The notes beneath the pieces were generated by a model that was not told the origin of the DNA, did not search any database, and saw nothing but the letters and a program-made list of their open reading frames with translations. DNA of 48,669 bases from Bacteroidota bacterium (GTDB lineage: Bacteria; Bacteroidota; Bacteroidia; Bacteroidales; VadinHA17). Numbering within the stretch: position 1 is the first letter of the stretch; each line of letters opens with the position of its first letter. The DNA lies in assembly GCA_022561875.1 (NCBI GenBank), contig JADFQJ010000019.1, positions 1 through 48,669 on the forward strand, read 5' to 3'. Positions 4,666-48,417 of this stretch are shown here, one piece after another. Both the position numbers and the translations under genes were made by a program.

Positions 4666-5325
4666 TTAGTTTATTGCATAAACTTTTAGCATCTTAAACA
4701 CCTTGTAATCTAACGATTTACTTTTAAACCGATCTAAATATGTATATAACTTAGGTTTATTCAGACTATTTTCCAGAACAGAATTATCAAACCGGAGATG
4801 TTCTATATCTTTCTCTGTTTTATACTGGTGATTGATATAAAAAAAATCGAGAATGGCCTTCTCCATTTCTGCGAACAAGATTTTTCTGGAAAAAAGTCTC
4901 ATATTGTTTAATCCAATTTGGGAATCATAGTTAAAATCAAACAAAGTATGACCAAATCCAAACAGGGAGCTTTTTACAGTGTTATACGAGAAGTTACCGA
5001 CAGGAGTATTGAATTGATTCGTTTTTTTAGTTGTTATGGATGTTGTTGTATAAACGGCTTCCGGTATCAGATTATAAAATGACAAAGCTGTATGTAAACT
5101 AATATACGAGGGCTGGTATATCAGATTTGCTGCTAACCATGGTATGTTACCATGTATTTGCTGATCAGTGAAACAATACCATTCTCTGCGAATTTTTATA
5201 ACAAAGCCTTTTTTTTGCCAGTTGATAAGGTTTAGACGCAAAAAATCAGGAAACATTTTCTCAATATCGAAAATTGAGAAAACTTTGAATGAATCCATTT
5301 TATTTCGAAATTCTAAAAAATTCAT
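4666..5325 (-). CDS. abiEi: AbiEi-like antitoxin and transcriptional repressor
   Basis: A 219-residue protein with an amino-terminal winged helix (about 1-55, KVFSIFDIEKMFPDF and LINWQKKGFVIKIRREWYCF) and the typical AbiEi segment PSYISLHTALSFYNLIPE (about 88-105). Family members bind their own promoter through the winged helix and neutralise AbiEii through the carboxy-terminal domain without tight protein contact (type IV). It sits 5 bp before abiEii and directly behind a clear Bacteroidota promoter. Identification rests on the domain pattern and the toxin next door. Confidence 0.82.
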   Translation of the reverse strand: MNFLEFRNKMDSFKVFSIFDIEKMFPDFLRLNLINWQKKGFVIKIRREWYCFTDQQIHGNIPWLAANLIYQPSYISLHTALSFYNLIPEAVYTTTSITTKKTNQFNTPVGNFSYNTVKSSLFGFGHTLFDFNYDSQIGLNNMRLFSRKILFAEMEKAILDFFYINHQYKTEKDIEHLRFDNSVLENSLNKPKLYTYLDRFKSKSLDYKVFKMLKVYAIN

Positions 5326-5335
5326 TTTGTTTCCA

Positions 5336-5410
5336 TTAACTATACAAATATATAATTATAATTAATATATTCAAATTTTATTTCTGTTAACTATACTCTT
5401 GTATAATTAA
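5336..5410 (-). promoter_or_regulatory. abiE promoter with repeated TTAACTATAC operators
   Basis: On the minus strand a -33 TTTG (5372-5375) and a -7 TATATTTG (5345-5352) are separated by exactly 19 bp, the Bacteroidota promoter pattern, placing the start about 13 nt before the abiEi ATG. The 10-mer TTAACTATAC occurs at 5336-5345 and again at 5387-5396, one on each side of the core promoter. The second copy forms TATAC-tctt-GTATA. This fits AbiEi-style autorepression. The rest of the spacer to 5696 shows no gene or clear structure. Confidence 0.65.
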
Positions 5411-5696
5411 ATGAAATAAATGCATTCATTAAGATATTGCTTGAATAGCTTGATATTCAGCGTTCAAAAGAAATGAAAGGTCTTACGCAAAAAGCAAATT
5501 TAAAAACAAAAAGTCACATTCGGATTTATTAGAATTAATACCATGGTAAAGGTACGCTAAAGCGCACTATTTCAAATGTATACCATCCTCAGAATACCAT
5601 GCAGAAGCATGATGCTTTTTTTTAGAAGATGCAATTCAAATGCAGCAAAATATAATTTTAAACGTCTTTGTTTAAAGAACCAAAATTTATTAAACT

Positions 5697-6413
5697 ATGA
5701 AAACGTCAAAATTAATCTCATTAATCCTTGTAATTGTATTTACAACAAATGCATATGGCCAGATCAGGCTCAGAGTTACCGGTTCGGGAAAAGTTGTATC
5801 CGAAGAACGAAAAGCCGGGTACTTTAATGCCGTCGAGGTAAGTTCGGGTATAGATGTTTACCTGAGCCAGGGACAAAAGGAAAGTATTACAGTGGAAGCT
5901 GATGATAATCTTCACGAGTATATTATAACCGAAGTGAGGAATAATACACTAAAGGTTTATAGTAAAGCGAATATCCGGAAAGCAGAAGCAAAAAAGGTGC
6001 ATGTTACCATAAAAGATGTGGAAAAGATATCTGTTTCGAGTGCAGGTGATGTATATGGTGAAACTTTGATTAAGACGGATGAATTGTCACTTTCAGCAAG
6101 CAGCGCCGGTGATATTAAGTTAAAAATTGAAGTTACCAGGCTAAAATGCAGGATCAGCAGTTCGGGTGATATAGATCTTGAAGGCATTGCCGATGAACTG
6201 GAAGCTGACCTCAGCAGCGCTGGCGACCTGAAAGCTTTTGACCTTAAAACCCGTATAGCTGATGTTTCCACTTCGAGTGCCGGTGATGCAAGAATCACTG
6301 TGACAGAAAAACTTCGTGCCCGCGCCAGTAGCGCCGGTGATATTTATTACAAGGGTAATCCACAACAAGTTGACGCACATTCTTCAAGTGCGGGTGGTAT
6401 TCATAAAAAGTAA
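5697..6413 (+). CDS. Secreted GIN-domain (DUF2807) beta-solenoid protein
   Basis: A 238-residue protein with a signal peptide (ISLILVIVFTTNAYGQ, about 6-21). The rest is the putative auto-transporter adhesin head GIN domain (DUF2807). It opens with GSGKVVSEERKAGYFNAVEV and then repeats a turn motif S-S-A-G-D or a close variant about eight times (VSSAGD, SSAGDI, SSSGDI, SSAGDL, SSAGDA, SSAGDI, SSAGGI), each marking a beta-helix coil. Such proteins are periplasmic or surface-located in Bacteroidota, with no established function. A strong terminator follows. Confidence 0.85.
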   Translation: MKTSKLISLILVIVFTTNAYGQIRLRVTGSGKVVSEERKAGYFNAVEVSSGIDVYLSQGQKESITVEADDNLHEYIITEVRNNTLKVYSKANIRKAEAKKVHVTIKDVEKISVSSAGDVYGETLIKTDELSLSASSAGDIKLKIEVTRLKCRISSSGDIDLEGIADELEADLSSAGDLKAFDLKTRIADVSTSSAGDARITVTEKLRARASSAGDIYYKGNPQQVDAHSSSAGGIHKK

Positions 6414-42461: not shown

Positions 42462-42551
42462 ATGAGACGAAATAGAAATAAGAAAATCATTCCTCATTTA
42501 ACAAATGAAATAAAAAGAAAAGTCAGAGAGTCAGTAAATGCTAAACTATGA
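42462..42551 (+). CDS. Possible small basic peptide coupled to the helicase gene
   Basis: A 29-codon frame, MRRNRNKKIIPHLTNEIKRK then VRESVNAKL, ends with a TGA overlapping the ATG of the helicase gene by 4 bp (ATGA). The same type of overlap joins the helicase and dprA genes, which suggests translational coupling. The peptide is strongly basic. It could be a real microprotein, a leader, or a chance frame; no family was recognised. Confidence 0.35.
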   Translation: MRRNRNKKIIPHLTNEIKRKVRESVNAKL

Positions 42552-44563
42552 ACAGGCAGGAGGCAGAAAACATATTAAAACGCACATTTGACATAGACCG
42601 TTTTTATAATAAGCAATGGGGAACCATTGAAAAAATCCTGAAAGGCGAACGGGTATTGCTTATCGAAAAGACAGGATTTGGTAAATCTTTGTGCTTTCAG
42701 TTTCCTGCCATAATGTTTAAAGGAACCACGATTATCTTCTCTCCCTTAATTGCCTTGATGCGCGATCAGGTTAAAAATCTGAATAGTCTTGGTATTGCAG
42801 CCAAATGTATAAATAGTGAACAAACCCCGGAAGAAAACTCTCAAATTATGAGTGAAGCAAAAGAGGGAAAACTCAAAATCCTCTACATTGCACCTGAGCG
42901 GCAGGAGAATTCAGAATGGATAGAAGCCACCAGGCAAATGAGCCTTTCAATGGTGGTAGTTGATGAAGCTCATTGTATTTCGGTTTGGGGACATGACTTC
43001 AGGCCGTCATTCCGAAGAATACTTAATCTCGTGAATTTATTGCCAAAAGGTATGCCCGTATTGGCAACCACAGCCACTGCCACAAAAAAAGTTGAAGCAG
43101 ATATTGCACAACAGATGGGTGGTAATCTAACCATTATTAGAGGCAATCTGATGCGTGAAAATTTCAGGTTATTTGTTATCAAAGTAAATTCTGAGGATGA
43201 AAAACTGATCTGGCTTGGAAAAAACCTTTCAAAATTGCCTGGTTCGGGTATACTTTATACCGGAACACGCGTCGATACCGAAATTTATTCCAAATGGTTT
43301 GAATATCTGAAGATATCCTCTATTGGTTACAATGCAGGTCTTGATCCTGATTCCAGAATTGCCATTGAAAACGGTTTGATGAAGAACCAATGGAAATGCG
43401 TGATTTCAACTAATGCACTGGGTATGGGAATTGACAAACCCGATATTCGTTTTATCATTCACACCCAAATTCCGCAATCGCCTGTTCACTACTATCAGGA
43501 AATAGGCCGTGCCGGAAGGGACGGGGAACCGGCAGATATTATTCTCTTTTACAATCCGGAGGACCGAGATTTGCCGGAAGCATTCATTGAGGGTGGCAGA
43601 CCTGCCATTCCAAAGTATGAAAAAGTTATCGAAGCCGTTAAAAGCGAATTGCTTGGCGAAAGAGAGCTTATGCGAAGGACAAATTTAAAGCAAACCCAAA
43701 TAAGGGTCATCAAAGCTGACCTGGTCGAGCAAAAGATCATCCGGGAGGTTACCATCGATAGAAGCAAGAAGTTTGAATATATCACAGGTGCACCCAAATT
43801 AAATCCAAAGGCATTTGAAGAATTGAGGGCTTTAAAAACGGCAGATCTTGAGAAAATGATAGGATACGTTGAAACTACAGGTTCGAGAATGAAATATTTA
43901 TGCAACTTTTTGGGGGATTCCGATAACAGGTTTTTCAAAAATTGCGACAATACAGGGTTACAAAAGCTTAAAGTGGCAATCACACCTGATTGGACAGAAA
44001 AACTGCAGGCTTACAGGGAGAATTATTTCCCCGAACTGAAAGTTGAGACAAAAGGATCAAATCTGGTGAATGGTGTTGCTGCATCCTATTATGGTGTATC
44101 AAATGTGGGGGCAGCCATCCACAGGAGTAAATATGAAAACGGTGGCGACTTCCCCGATTTTCTGCTTCGGTTTACACTTAAAGCATTCAGAAAAAAATTT
44201 GGTCAGGAAAAGTTTGACATGATTCTTTATATACCACCCACCAAGTCGGGAGAACTTGTAAAGAATTTCGCAATAAAAATTTCACAGGTACTTAAAATCC
44301 CGATTTCTCACAATCTCAGGAAGCAACGTCAAACCAGCGAGCAGAAAGTATTTGAAAACAGTTATCTTAAAGCAGATAATGTCAGGGATGCTTTTACATA
44401 TAACAATCCGACAGAAATTGAAGATAAAAGCATCCTGTTGATTGATGATATTTTTGATAGTGGAGCAACAGTGAAAGAAATTGGGAGATATTTGATAAAT
44501 TCAGGTGCAAAAAAAATCGCACCGCTGGTTATCGCCAAAACTGTAGGAGGAGATTTAACATGA
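42548..44563 (+). CDS. RecQ-type helicase fused to a ComF-like phosphoribosyltransferase
   Basis: A 671-residue two-part protein. Residues 1-340 form a RecQ superfamily 2 helicase: motif I KTGFGKSLCF (41-50), motif II VVVDEAHCISVWGHDF (136-151), motif III ATTATAT (173-179), motif V STNALGMGIDKPDI (287-300) and motif VI QEIGRAGRDGE (317-327). The usual RecQ four-cysteine zinc site is reduced to C452 and C466. Residues about 480-671 form a ComF-type phosphoribosyltransferase: VGAAIHRSKYENGGDF (520-535), YIPPTKSGELVKNFA (561-575) and the PRPP loop LLIDDIFDSGATVKEI (630-645). There is no RQC or HRDC domain. It overlaps the dprA gene by 4 bp. The PRTase/DprA pairing recalls the ShosTA defence system; here the PRTase would be the effector and the helicase a possible sensor of phage DNA. 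The role is inferred. Confidence 0.87.
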   Translation: MNRQEAENILKRTFDIDRFYNKQWGTIEKILKGERVLLIEKTGFGKSLCFQFPAIMFKGTTIIFSPLIALMRDQVKNLNSLGIAAKCINSEQTPEENSQIMSEAKEGKLKILYIAPERQENSEWIEATRQMSLSMVVVDEAHCISVWGHDFRPSFRRILNLVNLLPKGMPVLATTATATKKVEADIAQQMGGNLTIIRGNLMRENFRLFVIKVNSEDEKLIWLGKNLSKLPGSGILYTGTRVDTEIYSKWFEYLKISSIGYNAGLDPDSRIAIENGLMKNQWKCVISTNALGMGIDKPDIRFIIHTQIPQSPVHYYQEIGRAGRDGEPADIILFYNPEDRDLPEAFIEGGRPAIPKYEKVIEAVKSELLGERELMRRTNLKQTQIRVIKADLVEQKIIREVTIDRSKKFEYITGAPKLNPKAFEELRALKTADLEKMIGYVETTGSRMKYLCNFLGDSDNRFFKNCDNTGLQKLKVAITPDWTEKLQAYRENYFPELKVETKGSNLVNGVAASYYGVSNVGAAIHRSKYENGGDFPDFLLRFTLKAFRKKFGQEKFDMILYIPPTKSGELVKNFAIKISQVLKIPISHNLRKQRQTSEQKVFENSYLKADNVRDAFTYNNPTEIEDKSILLIDDIFDSGATVKEIGRYLINSGAKKIAPLVIAKTVGGDLT

Positions 44564-45702
44564 ACAAAGATGCAGCATATTGGATTGCATTGGCACATTT
44601 GCCGAGATGGGGTCGTTTAAAAATAAACAACCTCATTATTAAATTTTATCATAAAAATAAGCTTACGCCGGAGGACTTTTTTCAGTTATCTGTAAACGAC
44701 TGGAAAAATAATTATGACTTGGAATATAAAGAAATCGAGGATCTGGAAAAGGCAAAGTCTGAATTGGCAAATTCTGCATTTTTAGCAGAATCACTGCTCA
44801 ATGAGGGTTATGAAATCATTCCCATCACCTCTTCTGAATATTCAAAAACATTAAAAGATAACCTTAAGGTTGCACATGCCCCGGCTTTGCTTTATGTAAA
44901 AGGGAACAGGCAAATCATGCAGGAGAAATCCATAGCCATTGTCGGTTCCCGGAATACATCAGAAATATCGCTTCGATTCACCGACAATATTGCCAAACTG
45001 GCCAGTAAGGAATACAAGGTGATTGTTAGCGGATTTGCAAAAGGTGTCGATAAACAGGCCCTGGATTCTGCCATAAAATATAAAGGTCAAAGTATTATTG
45101 TCTTGCCACAAGGCATTATGACTTTTGGCTCGGGGTATAAAAAGTACTATAAGCAAATTATTGATGGAGATGTGTTGGTGTTGAGCACATTCCATCCCAA
45201 AGCCCCATGGAAAGTCGAGTTAGCCATGGCACGAAACCCCATTATTTACGGGTTAGCAGCCGAAATTTATGTTGCAGAGTCCTCTGATAAAGGGGGTACA
45301 TGGTCAGGAGTTATAGATGGGTTAAGAAAGAACAGGAAAATATTTGTAAGAAAACCGGAAGAATCTGAAAAGAATGCTAATCATTTACTCATTCAGAAAG
45401 GGGCAATTCCAATAGATTTCAATGGCAAAACAATTAAAGATTACGTTCCAGTTGAAAATAAAGACCTGTTTTCATCTATGAATGAACCGATGGCTGACTA
45501 TGAAAAAAAGATCATAGATTTTCTGAGAAATGGCGAGTATGCGGTAAAAGATATAATAAAAAAGTTCAATTTGAATATTTCTGAAAAAAAACTAAGGGAT
45601 TTTTTAAAATCGCATAAAGAAGTAGAAATTTTGAATAAAAAACCATTACGGTTCACCCTTAAAAGAAATATTGAACAACAGAAAAGACTATTTGATCAGT
45701 AA
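44560..45702 (+). CDS. DprA/Smf-family protein partnered with the RecQ-PRTase
   Basis: A 380-residue protein with an amino-terminal helical part (about 1-75), the DprA Rossmann domain (about 120-285) and a carboxy-terminal winged helix (about 305-370). DprA motifs are SIAIVGSRNTSE (124-135), VIVSGFAKGVDKQALDSA (154-171), IIVLPQGI and ELAMARNPIIYGLAAEIYVA (220-239; equivalent of the FPxRNRI loop). Housekeeping DprA loads RecA on transforming ssDNA, but this gene overlaps the RecQ-PRTase gene and starts a defence island. In ShosTA the DprA homologue is the antitoxin of the PRTase. That assignment is by analogy; a simple competence role is less likely. Confidence 0.85.
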   Translation: MNKDAAYWIALAHLPRWGRLKINNLIIKFYHKNKLTPEDFFQLSVNDWKNNYDLEYKEIEDLEKAKSELANSAFLAESLLNEGYEIIPITSSEYSKTLKDNLKVAHAPALLYVKGNRQIMQEKSIAIVGSRNTSEISLRFTDNIAKLASKEYKVIVSGFAKGVDKQALDSAIKYKGQSIIVLPQGIMTFGSGYKKYYKQIIDGDVLVLSTFHPKAPWKVELAMARNPIIYGLAAEIYVAESSDKGGTWSGVIDGLRKNRKIFVRKPEESEKNANHLLIQKGAIPIDFNGKTIKDYVPVENKDLFSSMNEPMADYEKKIIDFLRNGEYAVKDIIKKFNLNISEKKLRDFLKSHKEVEILNKKPLRFTLKRNIEQQKRLFDQ

Positions 45703-46175: not shown

Positions 46176-47459
46176 TTGAAGACAAAACATAAAATAATAA
46201 ATGGAGATAGCCGACAGATGAATCTTATCCCTGACAAGTCGGTTCATCTAGTTGTGACATCCCCGCCTTATTGGCAGTTAAAAGACTATGGGACAGAAAA
46301 CCAAATAGGCTACCACGAAGACTATGAAACATACATCAATAATCTCAACCTTGTTTGGAAAGAATGTTATCGAGTACTTGACAATAGTTGTCGCTTGTGT
46401 GTGAATATTGGGGATCAGTTCGCACGCGCAGTATATTATGGGCGATATAAAGTAATTCCTATACGAACAGAAATAATAAAATTCTGTGAAAGTATCGGAT
46501 TTGACTATATGGGTGCAATCATTTGGCAAAAACAGACAACCACAAATACAACAGGAGGTGCATCATTAATGGGAAGCTTTCCTACTCCTCGTAATGGCAT
46601 TTTGTCGATTGACTATGAATTTATTCTAACCTTTAAAAAATTGGGTACACCATCAAAAGTAAGTAAAGACATAAGAGACCAATCAAAATTGACTACCGAA
46701 GAATGGAAAAAATATTTCTCGGGTCATTGGAATTTTGGTGGGGCAAGACAGGATGGACATATAGCAATGTTTCCCGAAGAGTTACCCCACCGTTTAATTA
46801 AAATGTTTGCTTTCAAAGGAGAAACAGTATTAGACCCCTTTATGGGAAGCGGCACTACTTCTTTAGCAGCACGAAATCTAGAGAGAAATTCTATTGGCTA
46901 TGAAATTAATGCAGAATTCATTGAGATTGTAAAACAGAAACTGAACATCAATCAAGCGGATATTTCCGGAACAACTTATGAATTTTTCATAGATGAAATC
47001 AATTTAGACATTGATAAAGAATTAGAAAAACTTCCATATCGCTTTGTAGATTTTCACAATCTGGATAAAAAAGTTGACCCTAAAAAATTACAATTTGGCT
47101 CAAGAATAGATAATAATAGTTCTTATCGTGAAGAGTACTATTCAGTAAAAGAAGTTTTAAGCCCAGAGCTTTTAAAACTTAATAATGACCTTATAGTAAG
47201 ATTGATTGGTATTAAGGAGAAGAAAAGTTTGATTAGTGCTGCAAAACAATTCCTTTATGCCAAAACCAAAGGACAAAAAGTATTTTTAAAGTTTGATAAT
47301 CAGAAATATGATGATAACAATAATTTAATGTGTTATTTATATTTAAAAAATAAAACCTTCTTAAATGCACATTTGCTTAAAGAAGGATTGGTTATACCTG
47401 ATACCTCATTAGATTTTAAATACAAAGAAAAGTTTTTAACCTTGAATAATTATGAATGA
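46176..47459 (+). CDS. MjaI-type N4-cytosine DNA methyltransferase with SNase-like tail
   Basis: A 427-residue beta-class modification enzyme. Catalytic motif IV is TSPPYW (28-33), the SPPY form typical of N4-cytosine methylation, and it precedes the SAM motif LDPFMGSGTTSLAA (219-232). The neighbouring MjaI-like endonuclease implies CTAG as the target. Residues about 336-423 resemble a staphylococcal-nuclease OB fold (LIVRLIGI, GQKVFLKFD, LMCYLYLKNKTFLNAHLLKE then GLVIP). The D/E residues after RLIGI and the GRxLAYV arginine are missing, so this tail is probably not a nuclease and may bind DNA. The start must be the TTG at 46176: an in-frame stop lies at 46167 and the next ATG (46218) would delete the conserved NGDS segment. 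Confidence 0.85.
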   Translation: MKTKHKIINGDSRQMNLIPDKSVHLVVTSPPYWQLKDYGTENQIGYHEDYETYINNLNLVWKECYRVLDNSCRLCVNIGDQFARAVYYGRYKVIPIRTEIIKFCESIGFDYMGAIIWQKQTTTNTTGGASLMGSFPTPRNGILSIDYEFILTFKKLGTPSKVSKDIRDQSKLTTEEWKKYFSGHWNFGGARQDGHIAMFPEELPHRLIKMFAFKGETVLDPFMGSGTTSLAARNLERNSIGYEINAEFIEIVKQKLNINQADISGTTYEFFIDEINLDIDKELEKLPYRFVDFHNLDKKVDPKKLQFGSRIDNNSSYREEYYSVKEVLSPELLKLNNDLIVRLIGIKEKKSLISAAKQFLYAKTKGQKVFLKFDNQKYDDNNNLMCYLYLKNKTFLNAHLLKEGLVIPDTSLDFKYKEKFLTLNNYE

Positions 47460-47785
47460 CGAAGAAATAAAAGGAGCTATTATTTAGATTTTGGAACATA
47501 CTGAAACTGATATCATTGCCGATCAGATTTACGAAGAGATTGGATAGAGTCGTAGATCCAGGAAGAACCCAAGAACAGATTAGAAGATTAATCCGAGAAT
47601 TAGTTAATGATGATAGTTATTTAGTTGGGAGTTCGAGTACTGGGTTCTTTAAAATTAAAACTAAACATGATGCAGAAAGAGCCATAAGATACTTAAAAAA
47701 TCGAATTCCCGATTTGCAAGATCGAGCAAGTAGTATTGCTGAAAGATGGAATATTGAAAACCCAGAAAATCAAGTTGAACCATAA
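47452..47785 (+). pseudogene. Broken winged-helix gene inside the restriction-modification operon
   Basis: An ATG at 47452 overlapping the methyltransferase end begins MNDEEIKGAII, then TAG (47485-47487), then continues in frame as ILEHTETDIIADQIYEEIG to a second TAG (47545-47547). A different frame, open from a TTG at 47516, carries on with RVVDPGRTQEQIRRLIRELV, then LVGSSSTGFFKI and RAIRYLKNRIPDLQDRASSI to a TAA at 47783. Joined, the pieces form one winged-helix protein of about 110 residues of the SSS-x-GYF type. One nonsense codon plus one frame change therefore separate it from an intact gene. The 47516-47785 frame alone (89 residues) might still be made. The TAA overlaps the next ATG. 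Confidence 0.6.
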
Positions 47786-48417
47786 TGGCTAAAGAGTGGA
47801 TTTTAAATAGTGCAATGAATAGATTTCAACTGAACTTTAAAAGGAATGTTGGGCCGACATCAGAAAGCATAAGAAAGTGTGAACCTAAAACTTTGGATGA
47901 GTGGCAAGAATACTACTTCTATAATGTTCGGTCAAAAGAACATATCATTGACCTTGGAAAAAAACTCTACATTAAAATTACAGAAGTCATATCAGCAGAA
48001 GTTGAAGAAATTACCGAAGAAGACTGCATAGAATATTTGCTTAAACTCGTCATCGACAAAACCTTTGATGGTTATATGACCGAGATAAAAACCATTTACG
48101 GACAGTTGGAAAGAGAACTTGGGTACAAAATTGAACCTGCTCCTGATAAATGGGACAGATTGTTCAATGTGGACTTTTTCATCAAGATTAAAGACAAATA
48201 TATCGGACTTCAAATTAAACCGGTAAATCAAGGAATCCAACTATCTCAAATTTTCAAGGAAAAAGGACTTCAAGAAAAGACTCACGAAAAATTCGAGAAA
48301 GAATTTGGAGGTAAAGTGTTCTACATTTTCTCATCAAAAGCAAACGGGAAAAAAGTCATAAGGAATGTAGACGTAATTGATGAAATTCGTACCGAAATAA
48401 ACCGACTTGAAGGGTAA
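47785..48417 (+). CDS. MjaI-family type II restriction endonuclease
   Basis: A 210-residue enzyme recognised as MjaI family by its opening KEWILNSAMNRFQLNFKRNV (3-22) and the segments KTLDEWQEYYFYNVRSKEHI, ITEEDCIEYLLKLVID and DGYMTEIKTIYGQL. The putative PD-(D/E)xK-like core is NVDFFIKIKDKYIGLQIKP with D130 and Q143-x-K145. The founder, MjaI of Methanocaldococcus jannaschii, cuts CTAG; that specificity is expected here. The ATG overlaps the previous stop (TAATG), so it is translationally coupled to the broken winged-helix frame. No internal defect is seen. Confidence 0.87.
   Translation: MAKEWILNSAMNRFQLNFKRNVGPTSESIRKCEPKTLDEWQEYYFYNVRSKEHIIDLGKKLYIKITEVISAEVEEITEEDCIEYLLKLVIDKTFDGYMTEIKTIYGQLERELGYKIEPAPDKWDRLFNVDFFIKIKDKYIGLQIKPVNQGIQLSQIFKEKGLQEKTHEKFEKEFGGKVFYIFSSKANGKKVIRNVDVIDEIRTEINRLEG

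Follow-up and report, generated by a model that had tools for sequence, protein, structure and literature searches.

A type II restriction-modification (R-M) pair has a modification enzyme whose C-terminal tail (residues about 321-427) belongs to the SNase (staphylococcal nuclease) fold superfamily and, judged by its residues, is catalytically dead. The gene was found in the window, which is the whole stretch of 48,669 nucleotides analysed here, and its partner encodes an MjaI-family endonuclease. The fusion of the SNase fold to the methyltransferase (MTase) is ancient and stable, and it defines one clade of beta-class SPPY MTases, mostly situated beside RE_MjaI genes.

Gene and domain layout

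The features of the R-M pair are as follows.

46176-47459, + strand: open reading frame of a beta-class DNA MTase, 427 aa, TTG start
46176..46961, + strand: beta-class MTase catalytic domain (SPPY, motif IV before motif I), residues 1-262, from Pfam, motifs and the full-length model
46962..47135, + strand: conserved linker, residues 263-320, from column counts and model confidence
47136..47456, + strand: SNase-fold domain, predicted to be catalytically dead, residues 321-427, from Pfam, AF2, Foldseek and VIA
47166..47324, + strand: degenerate nuclease site, from the alignment with 8 free-standing SNases
47785..48417, + strand: partner gene, MjaI-family type II restriction endonuclease, 210 aa, Pfam RE_MjaI E 8.6e-51

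The Pfam profile N6_N4_Mtase matches residues 23-253 of the MTase (E 2.6e-44), and the motifs T28-S-P-P-Y32 and D220-P-F-x-G-S-G-T-T228 are invariant among 64 relatives. Since the SPPY motif IV precedes the SAM motif I DPFxGSGTT, the enzyme belongs to the beta class. The structures closest to its full-length model are TTHA0409 and the cytosine-N4 MTase 8s9m. The SPPY motif is typical of m4C enzymes, and on this motif m4C would be the modified base, while CTAG, taken solely from the endonuclease family, is the putative target; many genomes avoid this sequence in any case. By Pfam, the RE_MjaI gene is the next large gene after the MTase reading frame.

In the linker, the motif PYxFxD....DKKxDPKKLQFGSKID (residues 287-312, window 47034-47111) is near-invariant by column counts and may contact DNA in its own right. 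Residues 298-318 have pLDDT below 50 in the full-length model and are predicted to be disordered. This model has a pTM of 0.64 and does not fix the placement of the domains.

The tail has the SNase fold

The SNase profile PF00565 matches the whole protein with 25.3 bits against a gathering cut-off of 21, and the tail alone with 27.6 bits (E 4.2e-6); the same match was obtained in 63 of the 64 aligned relatives. An AF2 model of residues 263-427, computed with 75 sequences in the alignment, has a mean pLDDT of 83.2 and about 90 across the SNase domain, with strands and helices in SNase order. When this model was compared with the PDB by Foldseek, all 50 of the 50 matches listed were staphylococcal nucleases (best E 3.5e-7, E about 1e-6), and VIA superposed it on staphylococcal nuclease with Z 15-16 over about 107 aa at 1.7 A. 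Neither phmmer with the tail nor hmmsearch with the tail profile found a match among PDB sequences, and the kinship with solved SNases is therefore visible only through the Pfam profile and the fold. The tail profile also recovers genuine free-standing SNases from other genomes of the phylum.

An SNase-like domain in the MTase tail had been proposed from the DNA sequence, with structure prediction and fold search as the check. Both the profile and the modelled SNase (OB-barrel) fold agree with it, although its start had been put slightly late, at about residue 336, whereas the first strand starts at residue 321 (window 47136).

Loss of the nuclease site

The catalytic site was compared across 75 tails, a further 8 that are more divergent, and 8 free-standing SNases, all in one alignment. 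All eight free-standing SNases keep D21, R35, D40, T/A41, E43 and R87. Among the 75 tails, the D40 position is K in 73 and R in 2 (K347 in the window), the E43 position is variable, mostly K or P (K350), the R87 position is mostly N or H (N383), and the D21 position is mostly E (E331); the T41 position is E348 in the window. The only catalytic residue kept is R35, whose position stays basic (R in 58 of 75, K in 17; R342 in the window), so that from the set D21/R35/D40/E43/R87 of active staphylococcal-type nucleases the tails retain R35 alone, as R or K. The 8 divergent tails have lost the same catalytic residues by different substitutions. Two readings of the original prediction are borne out here: the acidic residues after RLIGI are replaced by KEKK (D40 by K347, E43 by the variable position 350), and the GRxLAYV region has lost its arginine to N383.

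Compared with staphylococcal nuclease, the tail shares the fold (Z 16), the sequence profile and the equivalents of R35, D83 and N100, but it is without D40, E43 and R87, and the active-site loop that comes after the 'DxPE' motif is shorter. It is also fused C-terminally to a DNA MTase, while SNases are free and often exported. One could still suppose that the tail cuts DNA through a rearranged active site, in view of R35 kept as R or K and D21 often replaced by E. The invariant change of D40 to K or R, the unconserved E43 and R87 positions and the shortened loop stand against this, and a linked DNase would endanger the very DNA that the enzyme protects. We regard a live nuclease as extremely improbable, and it was rejected on the losses of D40, E43 and R87.

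Other tail residues have become invariant or nearly so, namely D374, K377, D379, Y387, L390, N392, K393, T394, F395, N397, H399, K402 and F420. Together with the dead site, this indicates that the domain is conserved for a purpose other than nuclease activity. The description of the tail as a former nuclease fold, dead and fused to an MTase, thus fits both the fold and the lost site, and its reuse is probably non-catalytic.

Conservation and spread

In genome contigs of many phyla, relatives are 68-86% identical across the full length including the tail, among the best 80 of 573 confirmed matches. They come from about ten phyla and also from phages. A tblastn search of phage records with the tail gave no match, and the phage copies were found instead in IMG/VR contigs; none of the plasmid records carries most of the query. 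In the phylum sample of 395 genomes, the fused tail was present in 68, RE_MjaI in 61, and both in 48. The tail is clearly under purifying selection, the median omega over 34 disjoint pairs being 0.135 in the tail, 0.133 in the linker and 0.052 in the MTase domain.

The family is not new: PADLOC lists it as a type II MTase, and Pfam detects its SNase domain. The PADLOC-DB entry PDLC03259 'MTase_II' (423 positions) is the window family itself and matches the whole protein (E 2.4e-169), covering the tail; the entry consists of a name only and does not describe the tail domain. No published account of the dead SNase tail or of an SNase-MTase fusion was found in the open-access papers searched. The fusion had been called uncommon. 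This holds for type II MTases in general, among which one clade alone has the fusion, though a large and widespread one.

Two MTase clades and one endonuclease family

In a tree of the MTase domain, the window clade (SPPYWQLKDY) is separate from the M.MthZI-type class A clade (SPPYPM) with 100/100 support. The tail occurs throughout the window clade, with three changes on the tree that can be explained as one gain and two losses. The clade members without the SNase tail are L033, a virus contig, which has none, and L165, which has a different one. Lineages at 50% identity also carry the dead tail; taking sequence, model and phylogeny together, the nuclease site was evidently lost before the family spread.

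M.MjaI, M.MthZI and M.BfaI (CTAG, m4C) resemble the window MTase in being beta-class SPPY enzymes with an RE_MjaI-family partner. They differ in forming the separate clade with SPPYPM and in having no SNase tail, and the characterised CTAG MTases are shorter, at 303-364 aa (PMC5867850). The window enzyme had been taken for an MjaI-type MTase, but only its endonuclease is of the MjaI family. The search for the same fusion in MjaI-type MTases accordingly had a divided outcome, the fusion being absent from the M.MjaI/M.MthZI clade and present throughout that of the window.

M.MthZI has an MjaI-family endonuclease as its neighbour and no tail. In those genomes of the phylum that have RE_MjaI without the tail, 9 of the 10 RE loci with a recognisable MTase are of the M.MthZI type; the tenth (L177) has kept no more than a fragment of a window-type MTase. 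One endonuclease family is thus served by two clades of MTases, and the SNase tail is confined to one of them. At L165 (G105 C84 3500-9000), an M.MthZI-type MTase gene adjoins a window-type one, with two RE_MjaI genes behind them, and the window-type enzyme has an unrelated C-terminal tail in place of the SNase fold.

Relation to the endonuclease

The original prediction offered DNA binding or contact with the endonuclease as the new use of the fold. A tail that serves as the docking site for the MjaI-family endonuclease would explain the strong co-occurrence of the two (48 of 395 genomes with both, odds ratio 58). However, the co-occurrence is accounted for by operon linkage, the MTase and RE_MjaI genes lying within 3 kb of each other in 47 of the 48 genomes with both. 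Moreover, the tail is kept where the endonuclease is missing: in the whole genomes L082, L083 and L095 there is no RE_MjaI anywhere, and the phage contig L032 has a tailed MTase (4986-6386) between its tail-sheath and tail-tube genes. RE_MjaI was absent from the 26-kb record of L032, which may be a fragment; the phage MTase probably provides self-protection against R-M systems of the RE_MjaI type. Three candidate orphans (L061, L087 and L101) were excluded because they lacked the endonuclease by BLAST while Pfam detected RE_MjaI, and L102 was left out of the clean orphans for a marginal RE match elsewhere.

The divergence of the tail leads to the same result. Over the 68 loci with complete pairs, tail distances follow those of the MTase domain (partial r 0.79, p 0.0005), whereas the partial correlation of the tail with the RE, given the MTase, is 0.10, compared with 0.09 for the MTase domain itself. 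One tail family is paired with REs that are 31-89% identical to that of the window, and RE_MjaI also works with the tail-less class A MTases. Endonuclease docking, for which the co-divergence analysis gave no support, is on these grounds quite improbable. Since the orphans keep the tail, and since it co-diverges with the MTase domain and not with the RE, it most likely works in cis with the MTase; the observations support a tail that cooperates with the MTase domain and not with the endonuclease.

It might also be supposed that the tail binds an operator and lets the MTase repress or time its own R-M operon, as in HTH-bearing MTases. The RE gene lies directly downstream in most cases, and timing would therefore matter. 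Yet the orphan and phage MTases keep the tail with no RE to time, and many loci have a separate small HTH-like gene, which together make operator binding improbable, if slightly less so than docking.

The 20 genomes in the phylum sample that have the tail but no RE_MjaI are all from the genus g240. The g240 loci L149, L150 and L151 consist of arrays of partly deleted MTase copies, often with the tail and without RE_MjaI. A recurrent internal junction (..GSFPYPR|KLTFGSR..), in which about residues 140-301 are deleted, was seen in these copies, and the arrays represent either decay or a recombination reservoir.

Neighbouring genes

Upstream of the MTase (window 42548-45702) lies the gene of a RecQ-type helicase that has a phosphoribosyltransferase domain at its C-terminus, and a DprA-like gene overlaps it. 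They match the PADLOC entries PsyrT (E 3e-263) and PsyrA (E 6e-80) over the full length, and the R-M pair thus adjoins a PsyrTA anti-phage system in a small defence island. Between the MTase and the endonuclease (window 47452-47785) is the remnant of a small winged-helix-like gene of at most 89 aa, which could be an R-M regulator. It is intact in the relatives L040 and L048 (about 57% identity), whereas in the window an in-frame TAG at about 47485 and a frameshift at about 47540 disrupt it, through either decay or an assembly error.

Proposed role of the tail

The reading that we favour, at about even odds, makes the tail a cis-acting, non-catalytic DNA-binding domain that would function like the C-terminal domain of CcrM. 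In CcrM, the best-studied beta-class MTase with an additional C-terminal domain, the non-target strand is bound by this domain, and the enzyme is inactive once it has been deleted (PMC6787082). Like the window MTase, CcrM is a beta-class enzyme with a flexible linker and an extra C-terminal domain after about residue 270. The likeness is purely one of function, as the CcrM domain is SAND-like and not SNase (PMC6787082); CcrM also methylates adenine (m6A) in GANTC and is cell-cycle regulated, while the window MTase is paired with a restriction enzyme. A precedent for the reuse is eTudor, in which the SNase fold outlived its catalytic residues and became a binding module (PMC7641849), although eTudor is eukaryotic, binds dimethylarginine peptides and has its Tudor domain inserted in the SNase fold.

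The protein joins an SPPY MTase domain and a conserved linker to a C-terminal SNase fold whose nuclease site was lost before the family spread; the tail has stayed under purifying selection ever since and most likely acts jointly with the MTase domain. In the proposed mechanism, the dead SNase would perform the job of the CcrM domain, non-target strand binding, with another fold. Candidate contacts are the invariant lysine that stands in for the metal ligand D40, the retained R35-equivalent, and a conserved patch of K, N, T and H residues that covers helix 2 and the last hairpin (K377, N392, K393, T394, N397, H399 and K402). The tail is basic, with a pI of 9.3 in the window, which is also the median in relatives, but its net charge is modest, with a median of +5. 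Against a need for the tail, the clade members L033 and L165 are without the SNase fold, and it is dispensable at least there.

The main rival is a structural or oligomerisation module that rests against the MTase domain or mediates its dimerisation, and so stabilises the enzyme without touching DNA. In its favour are the co-divergence with the MTase domain, the position of the strongest conserved patch, on the hairpin and helix 2 side and not at the old active site, and the complete or near-complete invariance of the hydrophobic residues L384, Y387, L390, F395 and F420. Conversely, K, N, T, H and D make up most of the conserved surface residues, only basic residues occur at the D40 position, and clade members without the tail exist. 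We consider a purely structural role rather unlikely. Of the two uses originally suggested, then, a non-catalytic role is supported, with DNA binding plausible by analogy, and endonuclease contact is not.

A bolder and more tentative version of the DNA-binding reading is that the nuclease fold was recruited once and disarmed to become an essential DNA-strand clamp of a base-flipping MTase, in which the former metal/phosphate site, with its invariant lysine for D40, would bind the backbone of the non-target strand. If this were true, the tail would represent a target-engagement domain of a new kind, unlike both the CcrM and the TRD type, and the R-M family that has it spans about ten phyla and is phage-borne. 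The family gives a clear example, from prokaryotes, of a nuclease fold that lost its catalysis and became fixed in a DNA-protecting enzyme. The SNase-tailed clade has spread widely, and in phages the MTase occurs without the endonuclease, presumably as a means of protection. As a compact module, the dead domain may show how beta-class MTases hold DNA.
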